IMG/VR virus record: IMGVR_UViG_3300025133_000528
Span: 1 to 26,304 of that record
Source: a virus
DNA: 26,304 nt
Reading direction: 5' to 3' (one strand)
Shown: positions 15,636 to 22,725 of the stretch, one piece after another
How the letters are laid out: each line of letters begins with the position of its first letter
How positions within the stretch are numbered: the first letter of the stretch is position 1
Program-made: the position numbers and the translations under genes
Notes under the pieces: generated by a model
Seen by the model: the letters and a program-made list of their open reading frames with translations, nothing else
The model's database searches: none
Told to the model about the DNA's origin: nothing

Positions 15636-16112
15636 ATGATGTTAGAATACAGTAGAGTACGCAAAGGCGTCCACCCACCAGAACGAGCAAACCCCTCAGA
15701 CGCAGGTCTGGATCTATTCTTTAACCCCGAGGACGGTGACTCCATCACTATCGAACCCGGCACAAGCGCAGTCCTTCCGACTGGCTGTCGTTTCGGTGTG
15801 CCCCACGGTTACATGCTGGAGATTAAGAATCGCAGCTCTGTTGCGGCTAAGAGAAGTCTGGTTGTCGGAGCATGCGTTGTCGACTCCGGCTACGATGGCG
15901 AGGTCTTTGTGAACCTCCACAACATCGGCAAAGAATCACAAACCCTCAAAGCACACGACAAGATCGCACAGACAGTGATGATTCCAGTCGTCCATTTCAG
16001 GGCGCTAGAGACTCACAACGGCGATTTATATGATTGGTATCCAATCACAATTAGCGACCGAGGCGAAGGTGCTTTGGGCTCAACAGACGGAGGAAACAAT
16101 GAAAAAGCATGA
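15636..16112 (+). CDS. dut: dUTPase (deoxyuridine triphosphatase)
   Basis: 158 residues, GGAGA 5 bases upstream. Trimeric enzyme that hydrolyses dUTP to dUMP, keeping uracil out of DNA and feeding dTMP synthesis. Motifs in order: motif 1 SDAGLDLF, motif 2 NRSSVAAKR (RSS), motif 3 VVDSGYDGEVFVNLHN with the catalytic-region Asp and the uracil-binding Tyr, motif 4 HDKIAQTVMIPV, and motif 5 RGEGALGSTDGG, the P-loop-like arm that closes the site. Length is normal (E. coli 151). The end overlaps the adenine methyltransferase start by 14 bp. Confidence 0.95.
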   Translation: MMLEYSRVRKGVHPPERANPSDAGLDLFFNPEDGDSITIEPGTSAVLPTGCRFGVPHGYMLEIKNRSSVAAKRSLVVGACVVDSGYDGEVFVNLHNIGKESQTLKAHDKIAQTVMIPVVHFRALETHNGDLYDWYPITISDRGEGALGSTDGGNNEKA

Positions 16113-18077: not shown

Positions 18078-18443
18078 ATGACGGATGAAAAAGAAAAAAA
18101 GATACATGAGTATGGGTGGCTCAACAGGAGAGTCTATCCGAGTCTATACTACGACTCAACCGACACCGTGTATGTGAATTTGATTATGAAACTGGAGTAC
18201 GAGAGGTTAAAGAAGACAGAGTTCTTCAGAGCAATCGTCGATGGCTTTATAAATGATAACAAACATATCGCCGCTTTTGTAGAAGAATACAAAGAGGCGA
18301 AGCAAATTGATCACAAGAGGAGCAGAAGAATGATTAAGAAAGAGAGGGAGAAGGCAGAAGAAATTGATAAAAGATTTTCACTTTCGCCCGAGGATATTGA
18401 AAACATATTTGATTTAATAGATGGAGGTGAGGTTGATGTCTGA
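18078..18443 (+). CDS. Possible ribbon-helix-helix regulator
   Basis: 121 residues from ATG 18078 (GGGA about 8 bases upstream). The segment TVYVNLIMKLEYERLKKTEFFRAIVDGFIND (about 30-60) has a short amphipathic strand followed by two helices, the ribbon-helix-helix layout, with KLEYERLKK as helix A and TEFFRAIVDGFI as helix B. A very basic helix follows (KRSRRMIKKEREK, about 95-110) and an acidic end (SPEDIENIFDLID). A DNA-binding role, perhaps with the next gene, is an inference. It overlaps the sigma4-like gene by 8 bp. Confidence 0.7.
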   Translation: MTDEKEKKIHEYGWLNRRVYPSLYYDSTDTVYVNLIMKLEYERLKKTEFFRAIVDGFINDNKHIAAFVEEYKEAKQIDHKRSRRMIKKEREKAEEIDKRFSLSPEDIENIFDLIDGGEVDV

Positions 18444-18726
18444 TGCACTAAACATATATATGGACGCCCCACCAGCCGAGCGAAAATGCGTCAGCGCATG
18501 CAAAGAGTACGGCGTATCATGTCCCAACACTTCTTGCCGCAGTTGGCTGGATTTTGAGGAAGACTTGAACTGTACCCATGTGGCGGTCGACAAGAACGAA
18601 GAGGGCCTAACTCTTCGAGAAATAGGAGAGCGACTGGGAATCAGCTTTGTGCGAGTTTGTCAAATAGAAAAGGGCGCCCTGTCCAAATTAAAGAAGAAGA
18701 TGAAAAATCCCGTTTCAGGTAAATAA
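18436..18726 (+). CDS. Sigma region 4-like HTH protein with a cysteine cluster
   Basis: 96 residues, GGAGG 8 bases upstream. Residues 58-86 (GLTLREIGERLGIS then VRVCQIEKGALSKLKKK) match the sigma70 region 4.2 helix-turn-helix, which reads the -35 box (compare LEEIGxxLGVTRERVRQIExxAL). The N-terminal half has C18, C22, C29, C34 and C46 (CVSACKE, SCPNTSCRSW, NCTHVA), a possible zinc or Fe-S site, and no sigma region 2. It is therefore not a full sigma factor. It may be a -35-binding co-factor, a middle/late transcription switch or an anti-sigma-like decoy. It sits at the end of the metabolic gene run, just before the acidic and lysis genes. Similar Cys-rich sigma4 proteins occur in some Deltaproteobacteria, from memory. 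Confidence 0.75.
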   Translation: MSDALNIYMDAPPAERKCVSACKEYGVSCPNTSCRSWLDFEEDLNCTHVAVDKNEEGLTLREIGERLGISFVRVCQIEKGALSKLKKKMKNPVSGK

Positions 18727-18828: not shown

Positions 18829-19527
18829 ATGACTAAGAAACTTTTAAACGAATCAACAATTCGTCGTTTCATGACAATGGCTAATCTTTCTCCACTTTCC
18901 GAGTCCTTCTTGGACGAGAAGGTGAACGAGGAAGAAGAAATTACTGAAAACGAAGAAGTAGTTGAAGAAGCTGCTGAAGCTCAGAATGAAGGCGAAGACG
19001 CCATCGATGAAGCTGCAGAAGCAACCAATGAAGACGCAGAAGCAACTAACGAAGCTGCTGAAGTTCAAGAAGAGTCTTTAGCTCTCGCTGAAGAAGACGA
19101 AGAACTCATGGGTGACGAAGAAGCAGAAGAAACTATCGATGGCGACATCGAAATGGCTGACGCTGAAATCGACACTGACATGGACGGCGAAATGGACGCT
19201 GAACTCGACGCTGAAGAAACTGGCGAAGAAGATTTAGCTGCTCGCGCACAAAGCATCTTGACTGACTTAGCTGACTTGCTCACAAGCGCAGGTATCGAAA
19301 CAACTGTTACTGATACCGAAGACGACGTGGAAGCTACTGACGACATGGAAGCTGCTGACGATATGGAAGCTGCTGACGATATGGAAGTCGCTGCCGATAT
19401 GGAAGCAGACGCTGACGCCATGGGTGCCGAAGAAGAAGTAGAAGAACTCGAAGAAACTGCTGGATCATCGATTGATCAGTTGGTTCAGGAGATTTCTGCT
19501 AAAGTGATCGAACGCTTAAACAAGTAA
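18829..19527 (+). CDS. Highly acidic Glu/Asp/Ala repeat protein, possible virion or scaffold protein
   Basis: 232 residues, AGAGGAGA 7 bases upstream. A 30-residue basic N-terminus (KKLLNESTIRRFMTMANL, then LSESFL) looks like a docking or cleavable head peptide. Residues about 33-215 are extremely acidic, with Glu, Asp and Ala dominating, and a non-acidic patch (LAARAQSILTDLADLLTSAGIETTV, about 137-161). A C-terminal amphipathic helix closes it (SIDQLVQEISAKVIERLNK). Acidic low-complexity proteins of this type include phage head core or scaffold proteins and DNA mimics. It uses GAA for Glu far more than the genes around it. Possibly highly expressed, between the repeat cluster and a terminator. 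Confidence 0.75.
   Translation: MTKKLLNESTIRRFMTMANLSPLSESFLDEKVNEEEEITENEEVVEEAAEAQNEGEDAIDEAAEATNEDAEATNEAAEVQEESLALAEEDEELMGDEEAEETIDGDIEMADAEIDTDMDGEMDAELDAEETGEEDLAARAQSILTDLADLLTSAGIETTVTDTEDDVEATDDMEAADDMEAADDMEVAADMEADADAMGAEEEVEELEETAGSSIDQLVQEISAKVIERLNK
19321..19410 (+). repeat. Tandem 18-bp coding repeat (DDMEAA)
   Basis: Five in-frame units of 18 bases encode DDVEAT, DDMEAA, DDMEAA, DDMEVA and ADMEAD (residues 165-194 of the acidic protein). Units 2 and 3 differ by one base, which suggests recent slippage or unequal recombination, so copy number may vary. Confidence 0.85.
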
Positions 19528-19541
19528 TCTTGTTTTAATCC

Positions 19542-19589
19542 TTTACAAAAGCACTGCAATGTTGTATAATAGACTTGCAGTGCTTTTTT
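19542..19589 (+). promoter_or_regulatory. Overlapping terminator and promoter
   Basis: Terminator: AAAAGCACTGCAA (19547-19559) pairs perfectly with TTGCAGTGCTTTT (19575-19587), a 13-bp stem, with a 15-nt loop and a T-tract to 19589. Promoter: TTTACA (19542-19547), 17-bp spacer, TATAAT (19565-19570). The -35 ends on the first stem base, the spacer is the left arm and the -10 is in the loop. Initiation near 19577 would begin within the right arm, so the new transcript lacks the left arm and escapes termination. It ends the acidic-protein unit and starts the membrane-protein/endolysin unit. Confidence 0.85.
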
Positions 19590-19603
19590 GTATGGAGTAA
19601 AAT

Positions 19604-20014
19604 ATGACTGTTGTATATATAATCGTAGCCTTTATCGCTGGTATCGCTTTTCACAAAGTGTACAGTGCCCTCGCAATTATCTTCGGCCTCAAGAGCAATC
19701 TCTTGATGGTAGTGGAGAACGAACTATTAGAGTTTACACTCAATGTTTATAGCCGACTGATCATGTCACTGGAAACAGGGTATATCACCATGCAGTCTAC
19801 GGGCGTAAGCGAAGAGACTATTAAGAGAGTGAAAAACGAAGATGCGCACGATCTTCAAACGTGGAAGAAAGAAGTGATTCAGAAATTTGTTGAATCATAC
19901 CCCACGGTCTATAAAGAACAACTACAATTTGACAACTGGGAAGGTGCAATGCAGCAACTGTCTGCGTACAAGAACTTCCCAGAGGAGGTAACGAGAGATG
20001 AAAGCTCTAGTTGA
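19604..20014 (+). CDS. Phage inner-membrane protein with cytoplasmic domain
   Basis: 136 residues, GGAG 6-7 bases upstream. The N-terminal hydrophobic segment (about 2-30: VVYIIVAFIAGIAF then ALAIIFGL) spans or anchors in the membrane; the rest is soluble and helical with acidic patches (ENELLEFTLNVYSRL, KRVKNEDAHDLQTWKKEVIQKF). Overlaps the endolysin by 17 bp and shares its promoter, so a role at lysis or the envelope is plausible. No family recognised. Confidence 0.75.
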   Translation: MTVVYIIVAFIAGIAFHKVYSALAIIFGLKSNLLMVVENELLEFTLNVYSRLIMSLETGYITMQSTGVSEETIKRVKNEDAHDLQTWKKEVIQKFVESYPTVYKEQLQFDNWEGAMQQLSAYKNFPEEVTRDESSS

Positions 20015-20852
20015 AATAATCCAAATGATCCTCTCCCTACTCTTTGGGAGCAAGAAAGAAAAACTATTACAACCGAATGTTGAGTATAAAGAACTCGGCA
20101 TCGACAAAGAGGGTGAAGAGGTGGGAATTACAGCTCCCCTCTCTGACGAAGACCTCGAACACGCAAGAGAGCAGTTCGAGATAGACAACGCTCCAGCCAC
20201 AAGTATTGTATGCAACAATCACGACGTCACAATCGACTGGGAAGACACGATCCTGTGGACTCAGCCAGACGCACTAATGTGTAAATCAAATCAATACAAG
20301 CCAGTCAAGGGCAGCCGCGCCCAGACAATTGATAAGATTGTCGTTCATTGGGATGGCTGCTTGAATTCAAAGCAGTGCGCCAAAGTCTTAGCAGACCGTG
20401 GACTCTCAGCCCACTTCTGCATCGACAACGACGGCACGATTCACCAGCTCATGGATACGAACCATGTTGCATGGCATGCCCGTGGCGTTAATTCTAAGAG
20501 CATTGGCATCGAAATAAGCAATGCCGTCTACATGAAATACATGAAGAAATACACCCCACGCCGACCCATTGTTAAGGCCATGAAACTCCATGGAAAGACT
20601 TTTAAGAGCCACTTGGGATTCTACGATGTTCAGGTCGATGCGTTAAAAGAACTATTAAAATCACTTTGTGGGTTTTATAATGTGCCTTTAGAGTTCCCAA
20701 ACCGCAATGGCGAACTAATTAAAGGTGTAATTAAATCATCTTCGTTCGAGGGAGTGATATGTCACTACCATGTTACGGAGAATAAAACCGATCCTGCGTG
20801 TTTGGATCTGGCTAAAGTAATCGAGGAAATTAAAGATGACAAAAAGTTATGA
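19998..20852 (+). CDS. N-acetylmuramoyl-L-alanine amidase endolysin (Amidase_2)
   Basis: 284 residues, GAGG about 9 bases upstream. Cleaves the bond between MurNAc and L-Ala in peptidoglycan for lysis. The Amidase_2/PGRP core runs from about 110: IVVHWDG (H117, first zinc ligand), AHFCIDNDGTIHQLMDTNHVAWHARGVNSKSIGIEISN (substrate-groove motif), and CHYHVTENKTDPA (H256 and the KxDP motif, with D265 and C268 near the third ligand). The N-terminal 18 residues (LVEIIQMILSLLFGS) are hydrophobic and could be a signal-anchor, so export without a holin is possible. A variable acidic linker (40-70) follows. Start and end overlap both neighbours (17 bp each). Confidence 0.92.
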   Translation: MKALVEIIQMILSLLFGSKKEKLLQPNVEYKELGIDKEGEEVGITAPLSDEDLEHAREQFEIDNAPATSIVCNNHDVTIDWEDTILWTQPDALMCKSNQYKPVKGSRAQTIDKIVVHWDGCLNSKQCAKVLADRGLSAHFCIDNDGTIHQLMDTNHVAWHARGVNSKSIGIEISNAVYMKYMKKYTPRRPIVKAMKLHGKTFKSHLGFYDVQVDALKELLKSLCGFYNVPLEFPNRNGELIKGVIKSSSFEGVICHYHVTENKTDPACLDLAKVIEEIKDDKKL

Positions 20853-22692: not shown

Positions 22693-22725
22693 TTTACAAA
22701 TTCCAGATAGTGGTTATAATATAAT
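22693..22725 (+). promoter_or_regulatory. Promoter(s) for the GroEL gene
   Basis: TTTACA (22693-22698), 16-bp spacer, TATAAT (22715-22720). A second TATAAT overlaps at 22720-22725, giving a 21-bp spacing that is too long, so the first is preferred. It lies 10 bases after the preceding stop and about 40 bases before the GroEL ATG. Confidence 0.75.

Follow-up and report, generated by a model that had tools for sequence, protein, structure and literature searches.

A T-tract hairpin around the -10 hexamer of a marine phage promoter: a predicted start-clipped terminator-promoter

Between two genes of an uncultivated marine phage, a hairpin with a T-tract and a sigma70-type promoter occupy the same 48 bp, which raises the question of whether one short stretch of DNA could end one transcription unit and start the next. 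The sequence in which it lies, hereafter the window, is a 26,304-base IMG/VR record, a fragment of a phage that encodes a DnaE-type polymerase, and a 62-kb contig from that phage matches it at about 99.5% identity. The reading we prefer, to which we give a probability of about 0.8, is that of a start-clipped composite terminator-promoter, predicted to end the upstream unit and to start the unit of p136 and an endolysin gene. It builds on what the computation shows: the anatomy and stability of the element, its conservation in relatives whose stem changes come in pairs, the recurrence of the layout around unrelated stems in other phages, and the loss of structure on clipping.

Anatomy of the element and its setting

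The flanking genes are both on the + strand, and the element occupies the 76-base intergenic gap between them, as follows.

18829..19527, + strand: upstream gene, acidic 232-aa protein, with no family match and conserved in relatives
19542..19547, + strand: -35 hexamer TTTACA, read directly, invariant in all seven distinct relatives
19547..19559, + strand: left hairpin arm AAAAGCACTGCAA, the last -35 nucleotide plus the first 12 of the spacer, from an inverted-repeat search, with paired changes in relatives
19560..19574, + strand: 15-nt loop TGTTGTATAATAGAC, from folding
19565..19570, + strand: -10 hexamer TATAAT, within the loop, read directly, invariant in the seven relatives
19575..19587, + strand: right hairpin arm TTGCAGTGCTTTT, from the inverted-repeat search
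19577 (19576-19579 plausible), + strand: predicted transcription start, placed 7 nt past the -10 from sigma70 promoter geometry
19584..19589, + strand: T6 tract, where the upstream transcript is predicted to end, T6-T7 in all relatives
19594..19597, + strand: GGAG, the ribosome-binding site for the gene that follows, not within the hairpin
19604..20014, + strand: first downstream gene, p136, 136 aa with a hydrophobic N-terminus
19998..20852, + strand: second downstream gene, N-acetylmuramoyl-L-alanine amidase (endolysin), Amidase_2 at 3.6e-22

The two hexamers, separated by a 17-nt spacer (19548-19564), score 11/12 with optimal spacing as a sigma70-type promoter, and the hairpin has the sequence make-up of an intrinsic terminator, a stable stem with a U-tract directly after it. 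Its two 13-bp arms are 100% complementary with 15 nt between them, and the T6 tract overlaps the final 4 nt of the right arm. A first-pass annotation of this DNA had described a perfect 13-bp stem with T-tract overlapping TTTACA-17-TATAAT, which direct reading found correct to the base. Its equation of the spacer with the left arm holds for the first 12 spacer nucleotides; the last 5 lie in the loop, and the arm also takes the last base of the -35. The -10 does lie in the 15-nt loop, as it had stated, but an inner 3-bp helix, GUU/GAC, can also close within that loop. Since only 5 of the 13 stem pairs are G-C and the loop is long, termination may be partial.

A polymerase arriving from the gene of the acidic protein would make the full hairpin and U-tract and would terminate at about 19584-19589, ending the transcript of that gene. 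A polymerase with host-type sigma70 is predicted to bind the -35 and -10 in the same DNA and to initiate near 19577. Because this start falls inside the right arm, the new RNA would lack the left arm, would form no hairpin and would continue into p136 and the endolysin gene, whose ORF overlaps that of p136. The predicted +1 removes all left-arm bases; the transcript modelled from it folds at -4.8 kcal/mol (z +1.3) with a clipped hairpin energy of 0.0, in agreement with the first-pass proposal that a start there drops the left arm and leaves the downstream transcript without the hairpin. With two units separated in this way by one short stretch, the promoter would not be silenced by its own terminator. 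A polymerase bound or paused at the element might further assist termination, as a roadblock of the kind that the first-pass annotation proposed, or might occlude the promoter.

Other features of the window may be recorded here. The 101-aa protein encoded at 18421-18726 has a Sigma70_r4 domain (2.5e-11) and an N-terminus rich in cysteine; it is conserved in the gene cluster clade-wide and is a candidate phage transcription factor. A perfect 11-bp inverted repeat at 1718-1745, AAACACCCCCG/CGGGGGTGTTT with a 6-nt loop, lies just past an ORF end at 1713 and is probably an ordinary terminator. At 16096-16102 the 62-kb contig carries about 380 extra bases, between dUTPase-like and methylase-like ORFs, a difference that is a recent insertion or deletion. 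In the phage record collection that we searched, there was no DNA match to 18829-20852 and no protein match to the 615-aa ORF.

Stability and conservation among close relatives

In its context the RNA of the element folds at -25.0 kcal/mol (z -4.9), and the bare 49-mer at -20.4 kcal/mol (z -5.6). When the hexamers were held fixed and the spacer and downstream bases were shuffled, a stem of at least 13 bp around the -10 arose in 3 of 200,000 shuffles. The window holds no other perfect inverted repeat of equal length, and the promoter is among the two best of 26 matches between 15.0 and 26.3 kb. The strongest argument against chance, however, is the conservation of the element with paired changes in relatives.

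Relatives were gathered by a scan with the DnaE-type polymerase of the window, and the comparison comprises seven distinct sequences, the window itself and L004, L005, L006, L007, L009 and L018, whose DnaE proteins are 80-100% identical to that of the window. The same element was found at the same junction in all six of the others, and both hexamers, the 17-nt spacing and the T6-7 tract are kept in 7/7. The stem has changed around them: the pair G10-C44 is A-U in three of the seven, the pair C16-G38 is U.G in three, and in L005, L006 and L018 the inner stem is rebuilt as a new helix around the -10. Across the alignment 93% of the cells are paired, against 32-66% when the 3' partners were slid by 1-3 columns as a control. 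Among these seven only one pair is altered on both sides, a change that may represent a single event on the DnaE tree, and for this reason the covariation taken alone is modest.

Two expectations of the first-pass annotation bear on these comparisons. Related phages do keep TATAAT, and TTTACA with it, under stem changes that preserve pairing, and more distant phages have wholly different stems around the -10. Homologues keeping one signal without the other, which it had named as evidence against its proposal, are absent among the seven closest sequences but occur at a minority of distant junctions.

The window, the 62-kb contig and a 190-kb relative contain one copy of the element each, with no repeated cassettes. 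No Rfam family was matched at the gathering score, the weak hits being to microRNA models that match any hairpin. A scan of viral contigs with the consensus of the element returned 7 contigs, all at the known junction, and a profile search with p136 returned no further contigs bearing the element.

Three registers in the wider DnaE clade

A deeper DnaE scan covered the best 80 of 579 confirmed relatives, and the same junction could be read in about 50 of them. There a T-tract hairpin and a sigma70 promoter usually co-occur, in one of three registers that were curated by eye. In register A the hairpin straddles the -10, which lies in the loop, as in the group of the window and in L083 and L084, as well as in L068, L071 and L135 with weaker -35s and in L081 and L087 with poor T-tracts. 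In register B (L014, L069, L086, L094, L095, L099, L108, L109, L118, L119, L120, L130, L131 and L139) the hairpin begins at or near the first base past the -10; the automatic A/B labels of L118, L119, L130 and L131, where one or two extra A-U pairs reached into the -10, were corrected by eye. In register C the terminator lies wholly 5' of the promoter (L096, L105, L111, L112, L116, L117, L121, L123 and L132). Some distant junctions have a terminator only, a few a promoter only and some neither, and in L010/L015, L073, L080 and L088, whose genes touch or almost touch at the junction, there is no element. A promoter scoring at least 9/12 is present in 34 of 51 distinct junctions, against a mean of 9.7 and a maximum of 21 for 87 permuted hexamer pairs.

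The stems of register A in L068, L071, L081, L083, L084, L087 and L135 are unrelated in sequence, and the -10 is still in the loop of each. Clipping at the predicted +1 removes every pair of a register A hairpin, with folding energies going from between -16 and -24 kcal/mol to about 0. In register B the predicted +1 strips about 6 pairs at the base of the stem, beside the U-tract, and the energies in the B clade go from between -15 and -21 to between -4 and -11 kcal/mol; most stem positions of that clade show at least two pair types (CG, AU, GC, GU). On the DnaE tree of 44 phages, with labels assigned by eye, the register changes 7 times, against 23.6 in shuffles. This clustering indicates that the register is inherited and rarely switched, and that the sequence of the stem drifts with its pairing kept. 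Junctions of register A are about 77-98 bp long and those of B and C about 112-128 bp, which makes space saving one plausible driver.

We also surveyed about 1.8 Mb of sequence from relatives, which held 1193 unique T-tract hairpins, using 22 permuted-hexamer controls and a folding-based hairpin finder, a strict perfect-stem finder having missed most B elements. The -10 lay inside the hairpin (A) in 12 cases, against 2.6 ± 1.3 in controls (maximum 5), and the start clipped the left arm (B) in 15, against 1.4 ± 1.5 (maximum 6); most of these A and B cases belong to a single orthologous junction and are not independent. A promoter past the T-tract (C) was found 20 times, against 7.4 ± 2.8 (maximum 12), and hairpins lying entirely within the new transcript were not significantly enriched (12 against 6.9 ± 3.2, maximum 14). 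The placement is narrow: in 8 of the 12 A elements the edge of the hairpin is 18 nt before the start of the -10, at the last base of the -35, and in 12 of the 15 B elements it is 6 nt after that start, at the first nucleotide past the -10. Elements elsewhere in the genomes were found at L090 1473 and L134 2562, both before a FEN-type exonuclease gene, and at L109 7940 and L068 12260. No A or B element was found in 62 kb of T4 or 50 kb of E. coli, and 50 kb of KVP40 gave one weak B element. The element of the window is not unique but represents one register among the three that this recurrent composite takes, and the interpretation of the first-pass annotation is supported.

Two promoter-in-hairpin structures, at L134 2553-2610 and L135 5806-5865 (5813), carry a ribosome-binding site in the right arm, beside the start codon, and these hairpins could act twice, terminating transcription and keeping read-through RNA from being translated. 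Further promoters were also noted. In the window an 11/12 promoter, TTTACA-16-TATAAT at 22693-22720, stands just before groEL (22758) and is kept at G002 117792 and G010 25658; the scans found no hairpin at this promoter. Many sigma70-type promoters of relatives have TGATCCC or GGGATCA in the spacer or just past the -10 (G010 36665, G001 41511, G001 37402, G002 98210, G002 125757, G006 40683 and G006 51496), and in some cases the motif forms an inverted repeat that flanks the -10. It resembles an operator or regulator site common to these promoters, and as composite elements these promoters were set aside, being probable operators that lack a T-tract.

Alternative explanations and known systems

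An inverted repeat centred on a -10 is also what a DNA operator could look like, with a dimeric regulator on half-sites flanking the -10 that represses or activates the promoter and with termination incidental. Symmetric changes from G/C to A/T in both arms would be expected of a changing dyad too, and the operator-like TGATCCC/GGGATCA motif does accompany other promoters of these phages. Yet none of the elements carries that motif, and in the relatives scanned there is a single copy per genome. The spacing of the arms varies (15, 16 or 23 nt), the pair that became U.G keeps the RNA stem and breaks the DNA symmetry, the T6-7 tract is conserved on one side only, and related phages have unrelated stems; we therefore regard an operator as very unlikely. 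A terminator alone, with the promoter match arising by chance from the AT-rich loop, seems to us very unlikely too. The clade does contain long-loop terminators without a promoter, as well as the terminator-only junctions, but such an accident would have to account for an 11/12 promoter at optimal spacing that is invariant in seven relatives, and for the promoters at 34 of 51 junctions where the controls average 9.7 (maximum 21), the permuted hexamers giving only frame-shifted matches to the same family.

The least probable of the alternatives weighed here is that the hairpin acts in another capacity, either as a promoter that works as a cruciform or as a hairpin in single-stranded DNA, for which phage N4 and plasmid F provide examples, or by protecting the upstream mRNA at its 3' end. 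Extrusion would be possible for a perfect 13-bp inverted repeat whose loop is AT-rich, but N4 promoters have 5-7-bp stems and 3-nt loops, a geometry unlike that of the element, which is a near-ideal duplex sigma70 promoter with a conserved one-sided T-tract. The 3' ends of mRNAs are often shielded by terminator hairpins as well, and protection of this kind is compatible with the start-clipped terminator-promoter that we prefer.

Each half of the element, a predicted intrinsic terminator and a sigma70-type promoter, is standard, and what differs from ordinary cases is that the same bases are shared in a fixed register. The T4-like phages have composite cassettes of a promoter and a stem-loop terminator, the promoter-early stem-loops (PeSLs), as cited in PMC4503421. 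Like our element, these are compact units between phage genes in which a strong promoter of sigma70 type is combined with a stem-loop terminator. However, PeSLs are repeated, recombination-promoting cassettes of plastic regions with the stem-loop upstream of the -35, whereas the element is single-copy at a conserved junction and its hairpin straddles the -10. PeSLs of T4-like phages are the subject of work by Arbiol (2010) and Comeau (2014), and were reportedly described in RB49. In the genome of RB49 (AY343333), a T4-like phage in culture, we found 15 register C arrangements, with the terminator followed by the promoter, 2 of register A and one or two of register B. The A cases are at (-)112351, between alt and ORF183c, and at (-)3179, between gene 39 and ORF005c; at (-)9459 and (-)15781 a hairpin directly follows the -10, and near 15781 there is an annotated hypothetical early promoter. 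Since RB49 has register A too, this register is not unique to the DnaE clade.

The other half of the proposal has a precedent in gene e of T4 (also soc, 49 and I-TevI), where a late promoter lies inside a hairpin that blocks the ribosome-binding site, and the short transcript from it, lacking the 5' arm, escapes the structure and is translatable (PMC3014915). A start within the hairpin that removes the 5' arm is what we predict for our element, with the differences that its hairpin is a predicted terminator that leaves the GGAG outside and that its promoter is sigma70-type, the T4 promoter being late (TATAAATA). Composite PeSLs and start-clipping in T4 gene e are thus known; their combination, a terminator disabled by internal initiation, in fixed registers and at a conserved junction, was not found described in the openly licensed papers searched, which is weak evidence of its novelty.

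We lean slightly towards a wider view, in which start-clipped terminator-promoters would be a regulatory design used generally by large dsDNA phages. A sigma70 promoter would offer three fixed slots for the hairpin: ahead of the -35, around the -10 with its edge at the end of the -35, or beginning directly after the -10. In each of them initiation would disable the hairpin; the slot would be inherited and rarely switched, with stems turning over freely. If the element works as predicted, initiation cancels the terminator by starting inside it, and adjacent units are insulated and restarted in less than 50 bp. The element would then serve as a compact part combining insulator and promoter, and transcription units in phage genomes could be annotated by a simple rule. 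Registers A, B and C at one junction would offer a natural series for asking how terminating, pausing and initiating polymerases on the same DNA influence one another.
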